The position numbers and the translations under genes were made by a program. A stretch of 32,335 bases of DNA from Candidatus Hermodarchaeota archaeon (GTDB lineage: Archaea > Asgardarchaeota > Hermodarchaeia > Hermodarchaeales > Hermodarchaeaceae), in contig JAEOUH010000007.1 in the NCBI GenBank assembly GCA_016839365.1, positions 1 to 32,335 of the forward strand, given 5' to 3'. Positions 1 through 27,437 of this stretch are shown here, piece by piece (the first letter of the stretch is position 1; each line of letters opens with the position of its first letter). A model generated the notes under the pieces. That model saw only the letters and a list, made by a program, of their open reading frames with translations. It was not told the origin of the DNA and ran no database searches.

Positions 1-3000
1 AGGTGGGTTGATTTACCTTTACCCAGGTCAGTTGACATCTTCCGCATCTTACGGACCAGCCATGGAATGGCAAACACTCGGGTGTAAGCGAGCCAAGCGA
101 TGAGGATGATGATACCAATTATGGCAGCGATCAAACCCAGTCGGAGGCTGACTACGACGATGGGATGAAGGGCGACATTAACATTGACTTGACGTGTGGC
201 AACAGAGTAGATTAAGCCGGTTTCTGCTCGGAATTCCATAAGATAAGTGGTTTCGCCAGGAAAAGTGACCGAGGGCAGTGTATAGGTTCCATCTCCGTTA
301 TCCGTGAGAACCCAGCCGTGTTCATCGGTAACGAAGGGAATTATTACGGTAACCGTAGAACCAGAAATCGAGGTGTTATGATCCATATCCCAAAGGGTTA
401 TTGTGAATGTGTAAGCAGTACCGGTGATAGCTTGGATGTTTTGTTGAATTCCTCGGATTTCTGTTCGAACCAAAGTGACGGTGACTGGGAGTTGTAGGAT
501 TTGGGCGGTTTGATAGTTTTGCCGCGATAATGTGACATCGAGGTAGTAGTGGGCGGGAGAAACCTGGGTCATGTTGATTACAGTATAGTAAAGGCCAGTT
601 TCGCCATCGTAAGCTAGGGTACCACTTCCCAGTAACCAAGAATATGATCCGATTGCGCTTAATACCGTGTTGTTAGCATAATCGGTGTAGTTGAAGTAAA
701 GGTAAAGAACATCACTACGTGGGACGGTCCAAGGCTGGGAAATATTCAGCCAAGTGATGGCGCCGGTGTCGGGGAAGTACATCCAGGCATTCACAAGATT
801 TAGCTGAGTGGGTCGTGATTCGATGTAGATGGTGGCTGAACTGACTACGAATTCAAAACTGGGTGGATTCGCAGCAAAGGTTGCCATATAGACTGAACCG
901 GATGAAAAGGCCGTACTGGGCAACGTAATTGTGTACCATCCGGGTGTCCCATTCGCAAGCATGATGCCGGAGAACGGACCCCAGAAGTATTCAACAGCAG
1001 CCCCTGTGATTGGAGTGTCGTTGAATAGATTTCGGAAGTAAATATTTACTGTGAAGTTTAACCCCCAATAGACAACATAGGTGGTAGTTTCGGGCTCGAG
1101 GGCAGCTGGAAGCAGGGTAAGAATCAAGCTAATTGCCCGAGATTGGGAATTAACATTGGGGGAGGAAGCCGTGATGTAGATAGTATAGGATCCAGCAACT
1201 AATCCGGTGGTGTCAATTGTGACATTATAGATCCCCCCACCTACTTCAAAGTAGATGCCGTTTAGAGACCCAACGGAATAAGTGACGACTGCGCCTAGGA
1301 CTGGACCCCCCAGTAAAGTAGTATAATTCACCGGGAGACTGAAGGAGGATCCAATGGAAAAGTTCAGTGAATAGCGACCCGTTGGCACCGTATCGAGGAA
1401 ACTGGGAATTTGCTTGACATTGACGACTATCGATGCAAAGCTTTGAGCACAATTTGTACGGTTGACAAAGGCAGTCACATAGTGAACACCAATCGTTCCT
1501 GAAGAGGATAAGAACCAGGTGCCATAATAGCCTCCAGGTCCACTGGTATTACTGAAAGCACCTCCGATCCAGGAGAAGGTGACGTTGGCATCTGTGACAG
1601 GGTCACCGAAGATGGTTTCCACATAGATTTCAACCCAGAAGTTTTCACCATAGACAATATTAATGGGATCTGCCACCGTGACAGTCAGGTCAAGAGGGAG
1701 GGGATTAACGTAGAATTGGACAATGATTTGGCGGGTATTATAGAACGTTTTACTTACTGTTATAGTGACCGTATGAAGCCCAATACCGATGTTATCAGTT
1801 CTGAGGGTGAGAACGTACATGTCAGTAACATAGTATACATCTCCCCAGTCGCATGTAACCAGTGCCCCGGTAATGCCGATGCCCCCGTGATCTGTGTCAT
1901 TGTAGAAGAGGGGAATGCTGGTGTTTTGGCTCCAATAGATATTGGTCGGGTTGGTGAAGTCCAGATCGGTGAGAATTTCGCGAACGGTGACAGTAATATA
2001 GAATTGCTGAAATTGGTACCGTTCTTTGTAAATGGTGATATTGAGCACGAATGAGCCTAGGGAACCCGGACCAGTGCTGTTCAGCTCAATCTCATACCAG
2101 CCACTTCCAGTCTCAGTGATAGTATAATATCCAGCGGTCCAATTCGCAGTGACTTCTAGGTAAGGGACACAGCCAGTAATTCCCAAACTGTCAGCTTTTC
2201 GGAGATATTCAATTTGGATCGTAGCATTGTCCCGCCAGGGGACATAGACACCTGCGGCTTGTGGTGAATTAACTATGGTTTCAGCTACAACATCTATGAG
2301 GATGAAGCACGAAGCATCATCATAATGGCTTTTACTCGCATTCACGCGAATCCAAAACTGTCCCACATCACCGGCTTCAAGGGCATTAATCTCAGCTTCC
2401 CAGTATCCAGTTCCCGATACATAATGGAAGCTGATTGTGCCAGTTGTCCAGTTACCTTCAACTACCGCTGGGGGTTCAAGCCAATCATCGCTATCGATGT
2501 CTAAGTAACGGACTTTGGGGAACAAGGGCTGGTCTTCGTAGAAGGTTTCAATAATTGGCTCACGGGGTGTGAGACTTGTTGAATGGCGTACTGTGTAGGA
2601 GTAACTCAATTCTCCTGCTTCAGTCGAATTATCCCATCTTACGTAGATGCTATAGGTTCCTCCTGTTGTGTTCCAGCCATCATTATAGATGTTGGAAGAA
2701 TACACCCAACCGGCTGCAGTGGGAACAACCAGTTCAGTGTACCAGATGGCACCACCTGGTTGAAGGATTGTTATGTTGGCTTGGGTACCTGTTACACCAA
2801 AAGGAGGATTATCTGATCCATCAAGAATCCGAGCGGCAACACGAGTTGTATTATCTGCTCGGATTGCGGATGTAGGGGACCAGCCTCCGTCCCAAATTTG
2901 TAGTTCAGTTGAGTCAACATAGTTATGTGACTTTGCTTGAATCATCCAGTAACCATCAGGGCTAATGGTGATCGTTGTCGCTGGTATTGAGAAATAACCA

Positions 3001-4349
3001 TCTCCAAGATCCCCCCCTTGACATTGTCCTACTTTGTTAATGGTTGGAAGTTGGGGTTCGGAAAGAAAAGTGATGTCCCAGTCAACGGGGATGGTGAAGT
3101 TGAATACATCATTCCAGTATTTAGATGGCAAAGCAAGTTGATAATAAAAGGTCCAGGTTGTGTTTTGACCACTTTTGGCATTAAACCCTACACCAATCGC
3201 AGAGGGGTTTTGAGCATATACGGTTGAAGAGGTTTTGTTAGCAAAAAGGTTCAGGTCACATAAAGCGGTGACTTCAATATCCAAATCGGGATTGGGTGGA
3301 TTTGGAGTGGGTGCCCAGACTAGATTCGATAGGACCGGACTGGATGTCCACACGGAAGCGGGGATCTGTCTAATAAAACCGGTACCACGGCTGCCTTGAT
3401 CTTCAACAGCCAGTCCGTTCATGTAAAGATTAATTTCTGAAGGATAGACTTTGGTTTGCATGTAGAGCCAGACATTATCAAATTCGACGCGCATCCAGTT
3501 GTTGGAGCTGTAGCCGACGCTCATTGTAGAGAACATCCCGATCTCGAGTTCAACTGCACTATTGGGGAGATCAAATAAACCAGTATTAAGTTCGAGAAAA
3601 CCAGTATTATGCCAACTAGTATCTCCAACGGATTGAAAGCCTTTGGCCCAAACTTGTGAGCCATTAATGCGAACATACACATTGAAGAGGGCATTGCTTC
3701 CCCACGCACTGTCTACACGATAATCCATCTTCACAGCGATCCAAGCGAGATCGGATCGATTAACCGAAAAGGTTTGAGTCCACCAAGTTCGATCATTATT
3801 ATCATACCGATAATAGGAGCCATCCCAACGACCATCTTCTTGAACTCGAACGTATCCGTTACCATCAGGTCCACCACTTTGCCATGTTTGTGTGAACGTG
3901 TTGGCGCCACCTAAGTCATTGTATCCGCTAGTCCAGGAGGTAGCGGCCCCGTTGAAACTGGGATTTAACGCCCAAGTTCTATTTTCATATAGATCATAAA
4001 TGGAATAATCAAGCTGGTAACCGGTCCATCCCGGTGGGAGCACGACACTGGCAGAGTCTGTTCCAGGTGTCTGAGTCGCACTATCATAGAATAGAAATAC
4101 ATCTTGAGATCCGTCGGTTCGGTTTGCGACTTCATGAACTGATCGAGCTGTACCGATTCCATTGTAATCCGGACCAGGTACGGGAGGTGAGTTTCCCGGA
4201 GAAGAAGGCGCATATTCTGGTGCGGCGAGGGGATTATTGGTTGGAGAAGGCTGGAAAGCCTCGGGGGATGTCATTGAATGTACTGGTTGAGCCAGTAATG
4301 GAATTAGAAAACAACAAATAGCAAGGAGTATCATATACCGGGATTTCAT
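1..4349 (-). CDS. Giant single-pass surface protein, copy 1 (C-terminus cut by window edge)
   Basis: A long open frame on the minus strand runs off the left edge. I checked the frame at the start and near positions 4019, 2060, 410 and 89, and it stays open at each. The ATG at 4349 follows a GGTGGG site about 9 nt upstream and opens a signal peptide (MKSRYMILLAICC...). Residues about 60-300 look like a jelly-roll or carbohydrate-binding-like module rich in Trp, Tyr, Asn and Gly. The rest is many Ig-like beta-sandwich modules of about 90-110 residues with frequent N-glycosylation sequons. A membrane helix lies near residues 1400-1421 (LGLIAAIIGIIILIAW), followed by the basic segment FAIPWLVRKMRKMS. 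The protein is therefore probably anchored in the cell membrane with its bulk outside. The membrane and juxtamembrane parts are nearly identical to those of the next gene (4545-8732), so the two are paralogues. The ligand is unknown; adhesion or an S-layer-associated role is inference. The cytoplasmic tail lies outside the window. Confidence 0.85.
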   Translation of the reverse strand, partial: MKSRYMILLAICCFLIPLLAQPVHSMTSPEAFQPSPTNNPLAAPEYAPSSPGNSPPVPGPDYNGIGTARSVHEVANRTDGSQDVFLFYDSATQTPGTDSASVVLPPGWTGYQLDYSIYDLYENRTWALNPSFNGAATSWTSGYNDLGGANTFTQTWQSGGPDGNGYVRVQEDGRWDGSYYRYDNNDRTWWTQTFSVNRSDLAWIAVKMDYRVDSAWGSNALFNVYVRINGSQVWAKGFQSVGDTSWHNTGFLELNTGLFDLPNSAVELEIGMFSTMSVGYSSNNWMRVEFDNVWLYMQTKVYPSEINLYMNGLAVEDQGSRGTGFIRQIPASVWTSSPVLSNLVWAPTPNPPNPDLDIEVTALCDLNLFANKTSSTVYAQNPSAIGVGFNAKSGQNTTWTFYYQLALPSKYWNDVFNFTIPVDWDITFLSEPQLPTINKVGQCQGGDLGDGYFSIPATTITISPDGYWMIQAKSHNYVDSTELQIWDGGWSPTSAIRADNTTRVAARILDGSDNPPFGVTGTQANITILQPGGAIWYTELVVPTAAGWVYSSNIYNDGWNTTGGTYSIYVRWDNSTEAGELSYSYTVRHSTSLTPREPIIETFYEDQPLFPKVRYLDIDSDDWLEPPAVVEGNWTTGTISFHYVSGTGYWEAEINALEAGDVGQFWIRVNASKSHYDDASCFILIDVVAETIVNSPQAAGVYVPWRDNATIQIEYLRKADSLGITGCVPYLEVTANWTAGYYTITETGSGWYEIELNSTGPGSLGSFVLNITIYKERYQFQQFYITVTVREILTDLDFTNPTNIYWSQNTSIPLFYNDTDHGGIGITGALVTCDWGDVYYVTDMYVLTLRTDNIGIGLHTVTITVSKTFYNTRQIIVQFYVNPLPLDLTVTVADPINIVYGENFWVEIYVETIFGDPVTDANVTFSWIGGAFSNTSGPGGYYGTWFLSSSGTIGVHYVTAFVNRTNCAQSFASIVVNVKQIPSFLDTVPTGRYSLNFSIGSSFSLPVNYTTLLGGPVLGAVVTYSVGSLNGIYFEVGGGIYNVTIDTTGLVAGSYTIYITASSPNVNSQSRAISLILTLLPAALEPETTTYVVYWGLNFTVNIYFRNLFNDTPITGAAVEYFWGPFSGIMLANGTPGWYTITLPSTAFSSGSVYMATFAANPPSFEFVVSSATIYIESRPTQLNLVNAWMYFPDTGAITWLNISQPWTVPRSDVLYLYFNYTDYANNTVLSAIGSYSWLLGSGTLAYDGETGLYYTVINMTQVSPAHYYLDVTLSRQNYQTAQILQLPVTVTLVRTEIRGIQQNIQAITGTAYTFTITLWDMDHNTSISGSTVTVIIPFVTDEHGWVLTDNGDGTYTLPSVTFPGETTYLMEFRAETGLIYSVATRQVNVNVALHPIVVVSLRLGLIAAIIGIIILIAWLAYTRVFAIPWLVRKMRKMSTDLGKGKSTH

Positions 4350-4544: not shown

Positions 4545-7500
4545 CTATTCTTCGTCCTCATCAAGCGTCTCATACTGTTCTTTGAGGGTTTCGAAGACCT
4601 CTTCGCGTTCTTCAGGCGGTAAGCTGCTTATCTGTTTAAAGAGCGTCTTCTTCTCGCGTTCACTGAGTGCAGGAATAGCGTCGAGTCGGGCTTGGATGAT
4701 CTGCTCTTCCGCAGTTGTGTCCAGGAGACCCTCAGGTAGTGTTCTTGGCGCGCGTTCGAAACGGGTTCCATCGGCCATCTGGCGTTTCAGGTCTTCAAGG
4801 AACCAGACCCGGTCCTTGACGGGGATGCGCTTCATTTCTTCGAAGAGTTCAAGTTTTTGATCTCGGCCAAGGCCTTCGAGTTGGTCGAGTTCATGCCAGA
4901 TATCGATTTCTTCGGCTTCGCGTTCATCCACAGCTATGGCTAGGGGGACAGCTGTGGCGACGAAGGTGATTTTTACGCTATCATAGGCATCTTCCATGAA
5001 TTCGGTCATTTGATCAGGGCGCGTGGAAATACGGCGTTGGTCGCTACCGGACAGTTTGGGAGTCTTTCCTTTGCCAAGGGTAGTGGACATTTTCCGCATC
5101 TTTCGGACCAGCCATGGAATCGCAAAGATTCGAGTGTAAGCCATCCATGCGACGAGGAGGAGGATTCCGATGATGGCGGCAATGAGTCCGTAGGTAATGA
5201 TGTTACGAGTATATTCTGGGGTTCGTACGACTAATTGAAGGTTGTAGGTTCCGGTTTCGTGGTTATCCATAATGGCATTGATATTGAGTTCCCACACCCC
5301 CTCAAAGAAGACAGAAAGCCCTACGGCCTCATAAACGCCAGGTTCAATTTCTAGCATTTGGATGGGCTGAGGGTTAATGCCTGATATTTGAAGGTAAACA
5401 GATGCCCCTGAAATTGGAATCTGGTGAGCAAGGTCAGTAAAGTTAATTCGGACTCGAAAGAGATCACCGACATTGAGTTGATAAAATGATGTATTGAGGC
5501 TGGGATGAAGAAGATAGACTTCTGTGGGAATATTACGAACTTCAATCGTGAAACTCAGAATTGCTACCTCAAAGTTTTGCCCGCCAAAGCCCGCTGCAGC
5601 CGCATATGAACCGATGGGCACCGTGCTTGAATTGATGACGACCTGATAGAGGCCATTGCCGATGTATTCAATATTTTGATAGCCCACAATGTAGCTGATT
5701 TGCCCAGTTGCATCATGAATCGGTTGACCATTCATCCCAGTATAGTTGAATGTTAAAACAAGCAGGTCATTAATGGGCACCCATATCTCGTCAAGAGGTG
5801 TTTGGCGCATGCCCCAAATGCTTTGAGTGTATGCGTCGATAAGATTGGCTTCGGTGGGTTGCGGGGAGATTAGAAGCAGGATTTGGGCTGTGGCATCTTC
5901 ATAGGCGGCGATTTGAGCACGTATAGTGATGGTATAGGTTCCCACAGATTGATTCTCAACTTGAATGGTTATCGAATACCATCCATCTGTTCCATTGGGG
6001 AGTAAGGTGCCAGAAAAGCCTATTCCAAAATATTGGGGTGTTGCACCAAGAATTGGTTGGTTTTCCGCCGTATCGTTAAGATACACCGCGAATGTGAACG
6101 TGTCGTTCCAAAACACATTATGAGAAGTGAATTCGGGAATAATTTGCACCTCTCGGCCACGGATGAGAATGCTAACAGAAAGAAAAGCTTGCCAATAATC
6201 AACAGGTGCATTGGCATCTAGGAAGAAGCGAAGCTGGTAAGTCTCGTTGACCAGATATTTCGATGCCTCAAAGACCATCGAATAGTTACCAACCTCACTA
6301 GGGACAGAGGTAAGTTTGCCATAATCTACCATGTCTGCTGTTGAATTAAATATTATCCAAGTCGCAGTACCAAGAATAGAGGTTGCATTTACATCGATTC
6401 CTTGGCCAGATGGTGTTGAATCCAAATCCTTGTAAAAGACAACGAATGTTCGGCTTACATTATATGGGACTTCGACGAAGGGGACGGTTGTTGGCGCCTT
6501 AAGCTCTATTTCTGTTCGATGTTCTCGGGCTACGATCCCAATTGCCACATAGGTGTTTCCGGTATCACTCACAGTAATTGGAGCTGTTTGGTTATGATTC
6601 CGGAATTGATTGATGTAGCGAACATTGATATCATATTGATCGGGGGGAAGGTAGGCTGAAGCGGAGGGAGTGGTGTTCAAAGCAAAAACGGGAGCCGTTG
6701 ATGTGGCGTTATCGAGGAAGACTTCTGCGTATGTTGGAAGCAGACTATCATCAAACCAATCCCTAACCTCCAACGTCACGTAACTTAGTTGGCATTCAAT
6801 GGTAAGGGACCAGCCACGTTGGATGGTATGATCTAAGGCTATACTTGTGGTGTTTACGGTAAAGGTAATGCTTCCACCATAAGTCGAAAGGAGAGAATAG
6901 TTGGAAATTACCGTGTAGGTATCCGACGGTAATTTGAGAAAGACGATTGTGGCAACATCAGTCATGCCAGTCCGAACGAGGTGGCTTGTACTATTATAAA
7001 CGTAGATTGACACATTCGAGATATCGGTCCCCGCAACATCCTTGGTGATGCATGTCAGAACATTGTGTGCATAGAACTCCTCTTCACCGAGTTCTAACGA
7101 AATGGGTTGATTGACCTGCATTGAAAGAGAACGAGTTTCAGTAAAGTTGGTGCCAAAGGCTGAGGTATACAGGGTGTAATCATAGACGAAATGGTCTCCG
7201 TCGGGCATTACGAAGAAATCACCTTGGTGTCCTTCACGCAGAATCTGCTGCAACATAGTATTGTCTCCCATTCCTGTTACGGCAAGGGAGAGTACTTCCC
7301 AACCGACAGGGTTGACTTTCGCTATGAGTCCAACGGAGGGATCACTTCCACTTGCATTATCATACCAAGTCATCCAAGGCTCAACAGGAAAGTCTCGGCG
7401 ACGTCCATCTACAGATTCATTGTAGAGCCCGTATTTGGAGCCGTACCATGATTTACGGTTTTGTAGGGCATCAATGATGCCAGGGGTTCCAATCCCACAG

Positions 7501-8732
7501 GTAAAGGTCATAATGTGTGGCCAGTCCCCATAGTTTTTGACAGCACATTGTTGACCCGATTCTTGAGGATTAGCTTCAATATCGAGGAGTATTTTTACAA
7601 ACAGATTATCCCCGTGCCAATAGAAGGTGTAGGTAATGGTATAGTTAAAGAACCCATGGCTTCCCCAGCTCCTCGAATAAGAGTCTTGATACGGATCGGA
7701 GGGATAAACGGAGGAGCTGGTTTCGTAGCCTCCATCACTCGTGACAATCTTGATTCGGGTGAAGAGTGGTCCATCATCAAGGATCCAGACACCCGCCCCA
7801 TCCACCCAGGCTTCAGCTGGGTTATCTGGGGCAACGTTTGCACGGTTATTTGATTCCATTCCTGGATTGACCAAATATGGGTCAAGGGCGAATTCTCCTA
7901 AAAGCATGTATTGATCGGCGGATGTGCCGTTAGAAGTATCGAACGCGTCAGCATCACCATATCTAGCGGTGATTAAGCCACAGCAAGGTCCACCCCAATC
8001 AGATCCCCCACGGAGGGTGTCGACGAGGAGGATTGCTGAATGTTCGTATTGGCTGGCTGATGATCGGATGAAGATTGTGTCAACCCCAGTGTAATTTGTT
8101 GAGGTGACATCAGAATAGACCCAGGGCATGATAGTATCATCTGTTACGGGCCCATCAGCGGGTATGGCGTCAATGTGGTCAGTATAGGAGGGAGGTGTGA
8201 TTGGGTCATCGTCATAGTAGAGGTAGAACACTTCTTGGTGGTTCTGAGTGATGTTAACAAGGAAACAAACTGTACAGGAATCATAATAGCTACCTGTTTT
8301 GGAGACGTTCCAGATTTGGGATGGGACCTCATGCCAGGTTGTTAGATCCCAATAGGCAACTGCAATGATATTTTCCCGGGCTGTGTTAGGCGAAAAAGTA
8401 AGGTAGACATGGACGGGTTCCATTGTTCGGGAGGCGAGATTAGGTTCGAGGATTGTGATTTTCCGGCGATAATCGTATGAAGTGTTCCACCACTCTACAA
8501 GTGTTTCCCGTCCGGTTCCAAGTGGATTATCGGGTAATGGTGGTGAATTTTCATTAGTCGGCATGACAATGAGAACGTCAGATGGAGGGACAGGTTGCGT
8601 ACCAGGAGCGGAGGGGGTATACAATCCGCTTTCTGATAAAGTGGTTTGCTCAGGTAGAGTAAAAGTTGGAACTATAAACTGGCCTAGAAAGAATACGAGA
8701 AAAAGCCCGAGGGCTAGATGATTTTTACGCAT
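4545..8732 (-). CDS. Giant single-pass surface protein, copy 2, with duplicated cytoplasmic tail module
   Basis: About 1395 residues. I chose the ATG at 8732 over the upstream ATG at 8777 because AAAGGAG lies about 9 nt before it and the protein then begins with a clean signal peptide (MRKNHLALGLFLVFFLG). Residues about 75-150 (WWNTSYDYRRKITI) resemble a DUF2341-type beta module. A large Trp/Tyr/Gly-rich beta-sandwich region follows to about residue 540, then repeated Ig-like modules with many N-glycosylation sequons. The membrane helix is near 1180-1198 (YGLIAAIIGILLLVAWM), followed by basic FAIPWLVRKMRKMS. The remaining ~195 residues face the cytoplasm, are acidic and helical, and contain two copies of a ~41-residue unit (about 1279-1319 and 1347-1387). 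It is a paralogue of copy 1 immediately downstream. The architecture suggests a surface sensor or adhesin linked to an inner partner; the function is unknown. Confidence 0.9.
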   Translation of the reverse strand: MRKNHLALGLFLVFFLGQFIVPTFTLPEQTTLSESGLYTPSAPGTQPVPPSDVLIVMPTNENSPPLPDNPLGTGRETLVEWWNTSYDYRRKITILEPNLASRTMEPVHVYLTFSPNTARENIIAVAYWDLTTWHEVPSQIWNVSKTGSYYDSCTVCFLVNITQNHQEVFYLYYDDDPITPPSYTDHIDAIPADGPVTDDTIMPWVYSDVTSTNYTGVDTIFIRSSASQYEHSAILLVDTLRGGSDWGGPCCGLITARYGDADAFDTSNGTSADQYMLLGEFALDPYLVNPGMESNNRANVAPDNPAEAWVDGAGVWILDDGPLFTRIKIVTSDGGYETSSSVYPSDPYQDSYSRSWGSHGFFNYTITYTFYWHGDNLFVKILLDIEANPQESGQQCAVKNYGDWPHIMTFTCGIGTPGIIDALQNRKSWYGSKYGLYNESVDGRRRDFPVEPWMTWYDNASGSDPSVGLIAKVNPVGWEVLSLAVTGMGDNTMLQQILREGHQGDFFVMPDGDHFVYDYTLYTSAFGTNFTETRSLSMQVNQPISLELGEEEFYAHNVLTCITKDVAGTDISNVSIYVYNSTSHLVRTGMTDVATIVFLKLPSDTYTVISNYSLLSTYGGSITFTVNTTSIALDHTIQRGWSLTIECQLSYVTLEVRDWFDDSLLPTYAEVFLDNATSTAPVFALNTTPSASAYLPPDQYDINVRYINQFRNHNQTAPITVSDTGNTYVAIGIVAREHRTEIELKAPTTVPFVEVPYNVSRTFVVFYKDLDSTPSGQGIDVNATSILGTATWIIFNSTADMVDYGKLTSVPSEVGNYSMVFEASKYLVNETYQLRFFLDANAPVDYWQAFLSVSILIRGREVQIIPEFTSHNVFWNDTFTFAVYLNDTAENQPILGATPQYFGIGFSGTLLPNGTDGWYSITIQVENQSVGTYTITIRAQIAAYEDATAQILLLISPQPTEANLIDAYTQSIWGMRQTPLDEIWVPINDLLVLTFNYTGMNGQPIHDATGQISYIVGYQNIEYIGNGLYQVVINSSTVPIGSYAAAAGFGGQNFEVAILSFTIEVRNIPTEVYLLHPSLNTSFYQLNVGDLFRVRINFTDLAHQIPISGASVYLQISGINPQPIQMLEIEPGVYEAVGLSVFFEGVWELNINAIMDNHETGTYNLQLVVRTPEYTRNIITYGLIAAIIGILLLVAWMAYTRIFAIPWLVRKMRKMSTTLGKGKTPKLSGSDQRRISTRPDQMTEFMEDAYDSVKITFVATAVPLAIAVDEREAEEIDIWHELDQLEGLGRDQKLELFEEMKRIPVKDRVWFLEDLKRQMADGTRFERAPRTLPEGLLDTTAEEQIIQARLDAIPALSEREKKTLFKQISSLPPEEREEVFETLKEQYETLDEDEE
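4572..4898 (-). repeat. Two copies of a ~41-residue helical repeat in the cytoplasmic tail
   Basis: Within the tail of the surface protein, 4776-4898 and 4572-4694 encode two units that align without gaps. Shared positions include LD near the start, an L followed by a charged stretch with K, the pair LF, then IP or LP, an R, and E-x-LK-x-Q at the end. A linker of about 27 residues separates them. The pattern predicts two pairs of amphipathic helices. The duplication is visible by eye in the protein; I cannot assign it to a named family. Confidence 0.7.
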
Positions 8733-8892
8733 CCCAAATCGCTCCTTTATGGAGTTGTGTGGAAGGTCGGTATCCACTAGCCGTGAAATGCGCTTTAACG
8801 CTTTTGTCTGCGTAGAGCAAAGATTTCGAATACTGTGGAATCTGCGAGGTATCGAATAGGGCTAGTTGAGTGTGAATTGGTTATGGAAGAGC

Positions 8893-9697: not shown

Positions 9698-9900
9698 TTC
9701 AATGTCCCTTTTACCTGTTTGGTTTGCTAAAGGGATGAATAACCGTTGTCCGAAACTTACCCATCTAGGACACCCGAATGGCGCTCGGTTCCTGCATCAT
9801 CGATGGGCATTGGTCCAGAGGACCTGTAACCTCCCACCTCATGACAGGCGTTTAACGTCTCCGCCCAACTGGCGGCGACCCCTGCTAAATTATTACTAGC
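9698..9900 (-). ncRNA. Putative TnpB guide RNA (reRNA/omega RNA) region
   Basis: In characterised TnpB systems, the guide RNA scaffold overlaps the 3' end of tnpB and runs to the element's right end, with the guide read from adjacent host DNA. The corresponding region here is the last ~140 nt of tnpB plus the hairpin at 9705-9735. Its extent is inferred from the family, not measured. Confidence 0.35.
9705..9735 (-). repeat. Right-end stem-loop of the TnpB element
   Basis: TCCCTTT (9705-9711) and AAAGGGA (9729-9735) form a perfect 7-bp stem around a 17-nt loop. It lies between the tnpB stop and the crotonase ribosome site. On the minus strand it is followed by ACATTGAA, a plausible element end. 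Confidence 0.5.
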
Positions 9901-10974
9901 ATTCAGGTCACGATCTATTGTAAGTCCACATTGGTCACATCTATAAACCCGTGTAGATAACCGCAGATTGGTCTTAACGTAACCACACTGTGAACACCTC
10001 TTCGATGAGGGGAAAAATCGTGGTGCTATTATCAGACTCGATCCATACCAAGCTGTTTTATATTCGAGCTGGCGCCGAAATTCATAAAAACTCGCATCTG
10101 CCACCGCATTTGCTACTTTATGGTTCTGCAATAAACCTCTCACATTTAGATTTTCAAGAACCACTACTGACTTGGTTTTCGCCAGCAGGGTCGTCGCTTT
10201 GTGAATAGCATCTTTACGAATGTTCGCAACCCGCGCATGGAGCTGCTGTAGCTTGCGTATTAACTTAGAACGATTCTTGCTCATTCCCTGTTTTCGTGAC
10301 ACGGACCTATTCAGCCTTTTGAGCTTCCGTGCGAAGGCTTGTAGTGCTCGGGGATTCTCTACGACGGTGCCATCAGACACTGTAGCCAAATGATGAATTC
10401 CAACGTCTACCCCTATAATTGGACCTGAATTTTCCACATCATTAATCCTTTCTTTTACCTGAAGCGACACAAACCAGCGACCAGCCTTTTCTGAAATGGT
10501 GGCCGAGAGGATATGAATGCGATCTGACTCGGAAGGCAGATAACTGCGTTCCTTCAAACGGAGCTGTCCAAGGCGTGGTAATTGAATGGAATTCTTGAAC
10601 ACGCGGATGACTCCTGTCAAACGGAAGGATCCAAGACCTTCCTTCCGGGACTTGAATTTCGGAAATCCCGGGGGCCCTCCATTTTTAACTCGACGAAAGA
10701 AGTGGTGAAACGCTCGGTCTAAATTGCGGAGTGCTTCTTGGGGTGCGCATTTGGATACCTCATACATCCAAGGAAAATGAGTCTGTTTAAGCTGGTTGAG
10801 TTTGCGGTGTAAGGCTATAGCATTGGGTGATTTCCCAGTCTGTTGGTAATCATTTATTTTTCGCTGTAGACCCCAGTTGTAAGCAAACCGGGCACAACCG
10901 GCATGCTTTCGGCAGAGGGTCTTCTGCCGATTATTCAGCTTGAGTTCGGTTTTATAACCACGCTGAATAATCAT
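9757..10974 (-). CDS. tnpB: TnpB RNA-guided nuclease (IS605 OrfB family)
   Basis: 405 residues, a normal length for TnpB, with all parts present. The N-terminal helix-turn-helix/WED-like region includes GGPPGFPKFKSRK at about 99-111. The split RuvC nuclease has D190 in GVDVGIHHLA, E274 in VVLENLNVRGL and the DRDLNASNN motif at 354-362. The zinc ribbon cysteines are C327, C330, C346 and C349. The nuclease looks catalytically intact, not a dead TldR-type derivative. The ATG at 10974 has AGGAGGG about 9 nt upstream; an earlier ATG there meets a stop after three codons. TnpB cuts DNA next to a short target-adjacent motif using an RNA guide and helps its element persist; it does not itself transpose. 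No tnpA is present, so movement would need a transposase in trans. Confidence 0.95.
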   Translation of the reverse strand: MIIQRGYKTELKLNNRQKTLCRKHAGCARFAYNWGLQRKINDYQQTGKSPNAIALHRKLNQLKQTHFPWMYEVSKCAPQEALRNLDRAFHHFFRRVKNGGPPGFPKFKSRKEGLGSFRLTGVIRVFKNSIQLPRLGQLRLKERSYLPSESDRIHILSATISEKAGRWFVSLQVKERINDVENSGPIIGVDVGIHHLATVSDGTVVENPRALQAFARKLKRLNRSVSRKQGMSKNRSKLIRKLQQLHARVANIRKDAIHKATTLLAKTKSVVVLENLNVRGLLQNHKVANAVADASFYEFRRQLEYKTAWYGSSLIIAPRFFPSSKRCSQCGYVKTNLRLSTRVYRCDQCGLTIDRDLNASNNLAGVAASWAETLNACHEVGGYRSSGPMPIDDAGTERHSGVLDG

Positions 10975-25098: not shown

Positions 25099-26268
25099 TT
25101 AGCTATCCCTCTTGAAGACGCAGACCGTTCCGACCTGCATCAAATCACCCCATGCCTGACACACACCTGTTTCTGCCTTGGGGACTTGGCGCTTCCCAGC
25201 CTCATCACGAAGCTGCCAGAAGGCTTCACAACACTTCATCAGTCCAGCTGCGGCAATCGGATTACCCACACCGAGTAACCCACCTGAAGGGCAAATAGGC
25301 AAATCACCGTCACGCGCGGTGACCCCCTCCACTGTCAACTTTGGCGCCTGCCCCTTCTCCGCCAGCAGCAGACCCTCCATATGATGCAGCTCCTTATAGG
25401 TAAATGGATCATAGGGTTCAGCGAAGCTGACTTCTTGGGGTGGGTCATTGATTTTCGCCATTTTGTAGGCCATTTTGGCGGCTTTGGCGACGTATTGGGG
25501 GAAGTAGAGGTCGCGGTTGGTCCAGTAGGCGCTGTCGAGTGACCATCCGACGCCATCGAGCCAAACGGGTGCATCAGTGTATTTGCGGGCGACATCTTCG
25601 GAAGCAAGGATGAGAGCTGCGGCGCCGTCGCTGGGCGGGCTGATGTCAAGGCGGTTGACTGGGTAAACCATGATTTCGGAGTTGAGAACATCATCAACGG
25701 TGATTTTGGCAGCAAGTTGTGCGCTGGGATGGTCCAGAGCGTTCCCCTTGTTTTTAACAGCCACTTGGGCGATGTGTTCTTTGGGGATGCCGTGAACCTT
25801 CATGTAGCGGTGCATTTCTAGGGCGAAGATCCAGACGAGGTTAGGGTTGAGTGGTCGGCTGATGATTGGGTCCCAGATACTGCGGAAGGCGGTTTGTGGG
25901 TGGGGGAAGCAGGGGCTCATTTTTTCTTCGCAGACCACGAGGCAGGTGTCGTGCATACCTGAGGCGATGTGCCACCAGCCACCGATTGGTGCAAAGACAC
26001 CAGTGCCACCGCCGACGTAGACGTGAGTATATGGTTTTTGGGTTGCACCTGCACCGTCGAGGAGGTTTTCCGATTTCATATGGATACCATCGAAGGCATC
26101 GGGGGCGGTTCCCATAACCACGCTGTCGATTTCGTTGCGAGACATGCCAGCGGATTCGAGGGCCATGTTGGCGGCGTAAAATGAGAGTTCCTTGCCGGAT
26201 TCTTTAAGGCGTCGGCGATAGAGGGTGATTCCGGCGCCTATGACGGCTACGCGTTTTCTAATGTTCAT
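25099..26268 (-). CDS. Thiolase-fold protein B, lacking catalytic Cys and His (SCP2-thiolase/Ltp2-like)
   Basis: 389 residues from the ATG at 26268, where GGAGG lies 9 nt upstream; the longer frame starting at 26316 runs into the previous gene. The thiolase fold is clear: IASGMHDTCLVVCEEKMS, DISPPSDGAAALIL, then PYDPFTYKELHHME and SGGLLGVGNP. Aligned without gaps to the thiolase nucleophile region (CxSG...SGxxD), the Cys position is G87 (GGTG, 87-90), and no Cys occurs before residue 109. The HDCF position is Y286-DPF, and the GHP position is G335-N336-P337. It cannot work as an ordinary thiolase. Ltp2-type aldolases, also paired with DUF35, likewise lack the thiolase Cys and carry Tyr at catalytic sites. 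Retro-aldol cleavage of an acyl-CoA is the best guess. Confidence 0.88.
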   Translation of the reverse strand: MNIRKRVAVIGAGITLYRRRLKESGKELSFYAANMALESAGMSRNEIDSVVMGTAPDAFDGIHMKSENLLDGAGATQKPYTHVYVGGGTGVFAPIGGWWHIASGMHDTCLVVCEEKMSPCFPHPQTAFRSIWDPIISRPLNPNLVWIFALEMHRYMKVHGIPKEHIAQVAVKNKGNALDHPSAQLAAKITVDDVLNSEIMVYPVNRLDISPPSDGAAALILASEDVARKYTDAPVWLDGVGWSLDSAYWTNRDLYFPQYVAKAAKMAYKMAKINDPPQEVSFAEPYDPFTYKELHHMEGLLLAEKGQAPKLTVEGVTARDGDLPICPSGGLLGVGNPIAAAGLMKCCEAFWQLRDEAGKRQVPKAETGVCQAWGDLMQVGTVCVFKRDS

Positions 26269-26285
26269 TCTATATTCCTCCTTGG

Positions 26286-27437
26286 TTAGTTTTCGTTGCT
26301 TAATACAGCGACACAACCGCTTGCGGTAGGAACGCCACGCCAGCTCTGAGCGAGAGCAGTTTTAGCGTTTTTAATTTGTCGTTTGCCAGCGTGTCCACGC
26401 AGCTGATATACACACTCTAAGACCGACTGTAATGCGGAGCCTTCGAGGAGGTTTCCTGCGCCTAGTCGTCCGCCTGAAACGTTGACGGGGAATGCGCCAT
26501 CGCGATTGAATTCGCCGGCTTCTGCGAGTTTCCCGGCTTTGCCAGGTTCGCACAGTTGAAGGGCTTCAAGGTGTTGAAGTTCCTTGTACGAGAAATAGTC
26601 ATCAACTTCAGCAAAGTCGAATTCTTTGCGGGGGTTTTTAATGTCTGCGCGTTTGTATGCACGATCCCGTGCGAGGTTGGTATATCCCGCAGCGCCCCAA
26701 TCTCGTGCTTCGAGCCACGGTGTATCAGAACACCAACCCAGTCCCTTGATCCAAATAGGATGATCGGAGAGTTCTTTGGCTTTCTTTTCGGAAGCGAGGA
26801 CTATGACGATCATGCCATCGGCCAGTGGGCTGATGTCGCGTTGGGTTAGGGGATGGGAGACCATCGTGGAGTTGATGACTTCATCAACTGTCATATCTGC
26901 AGGAAATGCAGCCAACGGATTGTCCATGGCGTTGCGTTTGTTTTTCACAACGACGGCTGCGCATTGTTCCCGCGTTGTTTTGGTCTCATGCAAGTATCGT
27001 TGCATTTCCAATCCCGCGATAAAGTAGGGGTGGACGTTGAATGCACGATTATAGACTGGGTCTAAGGCATGAGTCAAAATACCATCAAAGGTGAGCATAT
27101 CCGAGGCCTTGCTATGCGCCTCGATTGCTACCACGTCAAATAATCCGGTTTCAATCTGCATGGTACCGTTTGCCAGTGCAAGCAGACCGTCACCTCCAAT
27201 CGTACACACGGATCGGAGAACGGCACCGAGTTGGTCGGGGACAAACTCATCAAAGATGGAATACCCTTCCCAGTAGTCTTCAGCTGCAGTAAGGAAGCTG
27301 CCAATGTCTTCGCGGGCGTTGACGCCTGCATCCGCGTAGGCTTTAACAGCTGCTTCAAACATCTGTTCCTTAAACGAAACCTCTGCCGTTACCGAATTAA
27401 ATGATGTGCACCCAATTCCAATTATTGCCACTGTCAC
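26286..27437 (-). CDS. Thiolase-fold protein A, lacking catalytic Cys and His
   Basis: 383 residues, GTG start at 27437. It is a paralogue of the next gene: both share VKNK-x-NA, DISP-x-DG, Y-KEL-x-H-x-E, SGG-x-LG-x-GN and AGKRQ. A gapless alignment to the thiolase active site puts G81 (GGDG, 81-84) at the nucleophile, D279 at the HDCF histidine (DDYF) and N329 at the GHP histidine (GNL). C78 lies three residues before the nucleophile position and is unlikely to replace it. It is the first gene of the operon A-B-DUF35-DUF35. Chain A may be an inactive partner, or may carry half of the site in an A-B heteromer. That is inference; the loss of all three catalytic residues is seen directly. Confidence 0.87.
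   Translation of the reverse strand: MTVAIIGIGCTSFNSVTAEVSFKEQMFEAAVKAYADAGVNAREDIGSFLTAAEDYWEGYSIFDEFVPDQLGAVLRSVCTIGGDGLLALANGTMQIETGLFDVVAIEAHSKASDMLTFDGILTHALDPVYNRAFNVHPYFIAGLEMQRYLHETKTTREQCAAVVVKNKRNAMDNPLAAFPADMTVDEVINSTMVSHPLTQRDISPLADGMIVIVLASEKKAKELSDHPIWIKGLGWCSDTPWLEARDWGAAGYTNLARDRAYKRADIKNPRKEFDFAEVDDYFSYKELQHLEALQLCEPGKAGKLAEAGEFNRDGAFPVNVSGGRLGAGNLLEGSALQSVLECVYQLRGHAGKRQIKNAKTALAQSWRGVPTASGCVAVLSNEN

Follow-up and report, generated by a model that had tools for sequence, protein, structure and literature searches.

A duplicated helical unit in the predicted cytosolic tail of giant surface proteins from a Hermodarchaeota-type archaeon and other Asgard genomes

The giant surface protein analysed here has, behind a single membrane helix, an inner tail in which one short unit occurs twice; this tail is more conserved than the adjacent outer part and occurs widely among Asgard genomes. 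Here it is proposed, with somewhat better than even confidence, that the tail is a cytosolic docking module, which would couple varied outer arms to a shared inner partner through a putative binding activity. The gene is located in a window (the whole stretch of DNA that was analysed) of 32,335 bases, which is an entire contig of an incomplete genome of 2.2 Mb.

Topology of the giant protein and the repeat in its tail

The open reading frame (4545-8777, minus strand) has a GTG start and encodes 1410 amino acids; an alternative ATG at residue 16 (8730-8732, minus strand) gives 1395 amino acids, matching the numbering used in an earlier, sequence-only reading of this DNA. The layout includes a signal-peptide-like start, an outer part of ~1.15 kaa, one membrane helix and an inner tail of ~190 residues. 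Hydropathy windows of 19 residues exceed 1.8 only at residues 20-41 and 1190-1221, corresponding to the N-terminal, signal-peptide-like hydrophobic stretch (8655-8720, minus strand, residues ~20-41 by hydropathy) and to the membrane helix (5121-5186, minus strand, residues 1198-1219), which is also a helix in the AlphaFold model, with pLDDT of 96 and 91 in its first two ten-residue blocks. Residues 41-1196 contain 29 glycosylation sequons and 8 cysteines, with neither past residue 1219, and the repeat follows the membrane helix, as expected for the inner tail assumed in the sequence-only reading. Hydropathy and the distribution of sequons and cysteines together give good support to the order signal peptide, outer part, membrane helix and cytosolic tail. 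No family of Pfam or NCBIfam reached its cut-off over the whole giant protein, and no S-layer family was among its matches (Pfam E ≤ 0.1, NCBIfam E ≤ 0.01).

Immediately after the helix comes the basic juxtamembrane motif IPWLVRKMRKMSTTLGKGKTPKLS (5049-5120, minus strand), in which all 24 aligned tails share P25 and R29 (tail numbering). It is followed by unit 1 (U1; 4779-4913, minus strand, residues 1289-1333), a linker (4710-4778, minus strand) and unit 2 (U2; 4575-4709, minus strand, residues 1357-1401), which is close to the C-terminus. The window protein thus has both features by which the two-unit tail group is defined here, namely an I/V-P-x-x-(V/I/L)-R juxtamembrane motif behind a single membrane helix, and the order U1, linker and U2 close to the C-terminus.

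Local self-alignment of the last 122 residues gave a single gapless 45-residue match, pairing EEIDIWHELDQLEGLGRDQKLELFEEMKRIPVKDRVWFLEDLKRQ with EEQIIQARLDAIPALSEREKKTLFKQISSLPPEEREEVFETLKEQ, with 15 of the 45 positions identical and a score of 60 against 28.5 ± 4.9 for shuffled sequences, none of which (0/500) scored as high. The gapless two-unit repeat described in the sequence-only reading therefore survives a proper self-alignment, and the motifs named for its units are all present in the order given; the unit, however, is 45-47 residues long instead of 41, and the interval given for the duplication (4572-4898) starts five residues inside U1.

Since the units are rich in Glu, Lys and Leu, and the A3 unit profile weakly and falsely hits an SMC-like protein (G009:C52, E 0.0025), the likeness could be that of any two low-complexity helices brought together by chance. 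This explanation is hardly credible in view of the shuffles and of the profile comparisons. A profile built from U1 only, using 18 tails of the host's family (f1), finds the U2 of the window at E 1.5e-5 among 2541 frames, the best decoy among reversed sequences being at E 3.7, and the profile-profile score of U1 against U2 in f1 is 46.1, with a maximum of 13.2 over 100 column permutations (0/100 as high). For the host's family, a chance repeat was rejected on these three grounds, and the restriction of matches at E ≤ 1e-6 to one phylum (see below) also stands against it. In other f1 tails the cross-match to U2 is weaker or absent, with E ≤ 1e-3 in four of the 13 f1 locus rows listed (L005, the window's own, L001, L002 and L037). 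Homogenisation of the tails by gene conversion was considered as well and is not needed, as the DNA of paralogues in the same genome is 70-89% identical over pieces of 28-497 bases.

In family f3, direct likeness between U1 and U2 is absent by profile-profile comparison (13.7 in the wrong register, permutation maximum 13.6), and U2 is strongly diverged (3-12 bits where found). As judged from these comparisons, the two f3 units are no longer recognisable as copies and are linked only via the host-family units. The f1 U1-only and U2-only profiles give E 0.2-0.9 or no match on the f3 units listed; the link to f3 is based on the window tail as sole query (best E 7.2e-7), the 24-tail profile, which already contained f3 rows, and f1-f3 unit profile comparisons of 26.7, 29.2 and 31.3, while f1 U1 against f3 U2 failed (11.3). 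Selection by the U1 motif gave 51 tails, and after removal of two with too little sequence ahead of U1, the remaining 49 (18 f1, 31 f3) were aligned over both units, with a linker of 21-175 residues in the f1 tails and 26-97 in the f3 tails.

The tail is also the more conserved side of the membrane. Over 115 residues past the helix and 300 residues ahead of it, mean identity was 45.5% inside and 30.0% outside, the inner value being higher in 101 of 105 pairs (15 sequences; the downstream paralogue described below and its copy L009 were left out, as their tails are cut). Similarly, in 32 sequences with the f3-type motif, which overlap the previous set by a few sequences, the values were 48.3% and 31.9%, with the inner higher in 479 of 496 pairs. 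The window protein and L003 share 70% identity inside and 30% outside; the nearest relative (in L001) shows 76% identity across 1398 residues. Columns of U1 that are invariant or nearly so in the 24 tails include R127, F130 and Q137 (tail numbering). Higher inner conservation alone is no proof of a partner, given that fast divergence is common on the outer side of surface proteins.

Predicted structure and structural look-alikes

The AlphaFold prediction on the 24 aligned tails agrees with the helical units of the sequence-only reading and contains three helices per unit, with boundaries matching between units: residues 1285-1298, 1305-1317 and 1320-1336 for U1 and residues 1354-1366, 1373-1384 and 1388-1409 for U2. 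Mean pLDDT is 76, with 78-88 for the U1 blocks and 82-87 for most of U2; because pTM is 0.32, the packing of the two units is not fixed by the model. No longin fold is present in the window tail model, which has helices and no strands (tail residues 51-90 are of low confidence, pLDDT 53-68).

Compared with structures in the PDB, the predicted U2 is most similar to protein A repeats (Z 6.1, Foldseek E 0.53) and also to the X domain of the Sendai virus P protein (Z 5.4). Both have a three-helix arrangement like that of U2, at low identity and with Z values typical of common arrangements, U2 itself being known from a model only; the Foldseek and VIA-align matches were accordingly set aside as generic three-helix bundles, with no sign of a new fold. 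When the unit profile was run against PDB sequences, the matches below 0.07 were limited to HeliScrew4, a designed helical protein (one stretch, 1.9e-6), and three engineered constructs of protein A repeats (from 1.2e-6 to 3.9e-5, none with a single stretch that passed); these are read as three-helix composition in common and probably not as homology. Likeness to Pfam FliG_C, BET, CSTF_C and DUF3106 is weak, over short helical segments, and below the curated cut-off in all cases, as with CSTF_C (13.4 vs 24.3) and BET (13.4 vs 24.5) on the window and, on L071, a relative with three units, FliG_C (20.1 vs 23.3). The generic nature of three-helix bundles and the weakness of the PDB matches count against the docking reading.

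Occurrence and tail architectures among Asgard genomes

The named records with relatives of the tail (4/4 loci) are Hermodarchaeota or 'Hermod' metagenome-assembled genomes, and the host, which the sequence-only reading considered as possibly an Asgard archaeon, is an Asgard archaeon of Hermodarchaeota type. With the window tail as sole query, 22 of 59 genomes match, counting its own; with the 24-row tail profile (E ≤ 1e-4), 124 of 227 genomes of the phylum match. These include all eight genomes seen of f1, one of them (G005) by a C-terminal fragment only (L033), and 44 genomes of f3 among the matches listed; the matches in f5, f11, f12, f18 and most f2 genomes are known by profile score only. 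An 18-row unit profile (E 1e-4) matches 92 of 225 genomes. In a search of 392 genomes, with at most 17 first-look candidates scored per genome, 72 match the unit at E ≤ 1e-6, every one in the host's phylum. Of the 392, at least 165 should lie outside the phylum, because a request for 300 genomes in the phylum search yielded 227, and these outsiders gave no match at E ≤ 1e-6. The profiles were built partly from these same families, and the match totals are therefore member counts and not independent tests.

Other carriers of the unit are Odinarchaeum, Loki-like genomes and three additional families. Many Asgard families are without it; f17 has no matching genome among the matches listed for either the tail or the unit profile, with at least 15 f17 genomes searched with the tail profile. 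The sequence-only reading considered a long, repeated inner tail unusual for a protein of this kind and held that its complete absence from homologues would speak against the observation. Within this lineage the first does not hold, as the tail is found throughout f1 and is common in the second large family, and for the second the opposite was found, with relatives carrying the tail widely. Earlier descriptions of a duplicated three-helix tail module were not found in the literature searched, which had no preprints and few subscription journals. Family f3 probably corresponds to Thorarchaeia, since gelsolin-family matches are present in all five f3 genomes tested and the best solved match of one of them is 2DGel3 (7c2g, E 3.5e-105), which we take to be a thorarchaeotal entry.

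The host-family tails have the juxtamembrane motif, U1, linker and U2, with a third unit in one paralogue type (L006, L035, L036 and L071); one frame (L037) reaches 7129 residues and has a linker rich in Pro and Glu. Across all frames read with a match to the unit profile, 45 have one match, 44 have two and nine have three, although four of these nine are f3 frames in which the weak second unit is split. Odinarchaeum has a 1569-aa protein with two units and proteins of 701 and 868 aa with one each, and a member of its genus (G019) has two units in 1609 aa; families f26 and f27 have one unit in 1021 aa and two in 3586 aa. The f1 U1-only profile missed most Odin and Loki-like units, and the f1 U2-only profile finds several of them (e.g., L092, 6.2e-5; L096, 1.4e-6; L161, 4.3e-10) but not all (L094, 0.074; L093, 0.0093).

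Families f2 and f29, which appear Loki-like from their longin-type content, have a single unit mid-way in a tail of ~420 residues, the f29 tails being read from sequence only. The AlphaFold model of a Loki-like f2 tail (19 rows, pLDDT 80.7) has, in this order, a predicted longin domain, the unit at 232-277 as three helices, and TPR-like helices. Its longin is closest to Sec22b (Z 11.3, rmsd 2.6, 113 residues), with COPI and AP small subunits close behind, and reaches Z 10.3 with a Lokiarchaeal longin (8yqg); Foldseek gave one match below 1e-3 (best E 4.6e-4). These tails share with the window protein the unit, once, in a cytosolic tail behind one membrane helix; the window protein differs in having two units and neither a longin domain nor a TPR part. 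With an f2 tail as query, all 31 f2 genomes searched match, mainly via the longin-type part, with 6 to 25 matches per genome, many of them on frames of 450-800 aa. Separately, two Loki-like proteins with several hydrophobic stretches (L099 and L100) have C-terminal ends that weakly resemble two tandem units (8.6 and 17.4 bits in L099; E 0.36 and 0.11 in L100).

Some f2 proteins (L025, L026, L030 and L031) have the juxtamembrane motif and a short tail, and the surface proteins L025, L026 and L030 gave no profile match to the unit. This bears on the possibility that the tail is a structural stop, in which a folded domain and its basic flank would act as a plug, setting the topology and resisting pull-out from the membrane, and the sequence of the tail would matter for folding only. 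The basic juxtamembrane segment, the generic three-helix fold and the strongly variable linker would all suit such a plug; however, these three f2 proteins have a short tail with no match to the unit, so that a plug is not always needed, the polar residues R127 and Q137 are conserved, and the inner part is the more alike in nearly all pairs compared, so a structural stop is considered quite improbable.

Gene neighbourhood and function of the tail

Downstream of the giant gene is a paralogue (3-4349, minus strand; 1449 aa read) that shares the membrane helix and the juxtamembrane motif and runs off the contig end. A 'tailless' paralogue was rejected, as the contig end cuts the frame just behind the juxtamembrane motif, and in its relative L034 (52% over 548 aa) the frame goes on to a tail with two units. 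The contig end is thus inside the juxtamembrane-coding stretch of this second giant gene (window 1-140), and the corresponding stretches of both genes are 81% identical over 119 bases. Assemblies may be broken by paralogous tails. In G004, an end of 127 bases is identical between two contigs (L109:3364-3490 = L110:1-127), which suggests that they are neighbours with a tandem pair resembling that of the window. G001 has two giant genes in a row followed by nitroreductase-family, 180-aa and CoA-ligase-like genes, and in G007 the same kinds of gene come after one giant. The genes beside the giants vary by family, with local synteny only, and gave no pointer to a partner. In one genus (two genomes), multi-PAS proteins with eight PAS_9 stretches each are downstream of the giant (L081:14738-18175, L074:6950-10009); a weak match inside a multi-PAS protein adjoining a giant gene (E 0.029) was unconfirmed by the unit profile and was discarded. 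Elsewhere, the window has a stand-alone IS200/IS605 TnpB of the RNA-guided endonuclease family (9757-10974, minus strand; guided_TnpB, 291.8 bits vs cut-off 100) just upstream of an enoyl-CoA hydratase gene, and two adjoining thiolase-domain genes with overlapping frames (25099-27437, minus strand), of which 25099-26316 scores 660.7 against the PRK06065 cut-off of 455 and 26286-27437 scores 480 against the PRK06066 cut-off of 516.

In f3, two tails are 7.6-7.9 kb apart on the same strand in at least 18 of the 44 matching genomes, and in each of the five stretches read (L083-L087) the giant frames share 1-4 bases. Such pairs, together with the sharing of the tail by several paralogues of one genome and the two units per chain, which permit chain-wise pairing, would fit the main rival, in which the units pair with each other and cluster the giants on the inner face with no further partner. 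This rival is regarded as fairly unlikely, given that copy number varies, that Loki-like tails carry one unit along with other domains, and that a G006 protein (L101:5048-6982, plus strand, running off the contig) has a U1-type unit by its N-terminus (E 3.5e-8) and TPR repeats above the Pfam cut-off at its C-terminus, without a strong hydrophobic stretch (19-residue maximum 0.93).

In the preferred docking reading, the basic juxtamembrane segment behind the membrane helix is followed by two homologous units, predicted to have three helices each (one to three units in relatives) and joined by a flexible linker, and it is proposed that these would present one or more binding faces to a cytosolic protein or complex. 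Matching tails are on four contigs of the window's genome. Several different giants of one cell could use a common partner, so that varied outer arms would lead to one inner machine; both the binding of a protein by the units and the sharing of a partner by the paralogues are presumed. What kind of partner this might be is hinted at only by the longin company in Loki-like genomes: because the unit there sits between a predicted longin and TPR-like helices, small-GTPase-type membrane signalling is a possible partner class, which for the window's protein is only a lead. The sequence-only reading, which is partly supported overall, had the tail as one that could dock a cytoskeletal or signalling partner; docking fits the conservation and the domain company of the relatives, but no such partner was found for the window's tail.

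Integrins and cadherins are adhesion receptors with a docking tail. The window protein is like them in its large outer arm, built of repeated modules, in its one membrane helix and in its conserved inner tail, a likeness of architecture only, and differs in its duplicated three-helix units, no relation in sequence or fold being claimed. In an extended version of the docking reading, which is considered unlikely, the two-unit tail would form the inside half of a transmembrane adhesion system in Asgard archaea: several giant adhesins in each cell would connect, via a three-helix adaptor unit specific to the phylum, to small-GTPase/longin-type membrane machinery, and contact at the surface would thereby be registered within the cell. 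Tomography of Lokiarchaeum ossiferum describes cells with one membrane, no ordered S-layer, many protruding complex surface proteins and an actin-based cytoskeleton (PMC9834061); this Asgard cell-surface setting is alike, and the part of that source drawn on here names no genes or tails. Asgard genomes encode many small GTPases, roadblock proteins and longin proteins, according to the portion of PMC10933270 used here. An account of the outside-to-inside wiring of the Asgard surface was not found in the literature searched.

In several Asgard groups, the tail module may connect the cell surface with cytosolic proteins. It is a conserved and countable inner module on giants of several Asgard families, and it is short enough for expression and for use as bait; if it binds a partner, a link between surface contact and the cytoskeleton or GTPases would become directly testable. 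The adhesion-system reading, if true, would mean integrin- or cadherin-like logic in archaeal relatives of eukaryotes.
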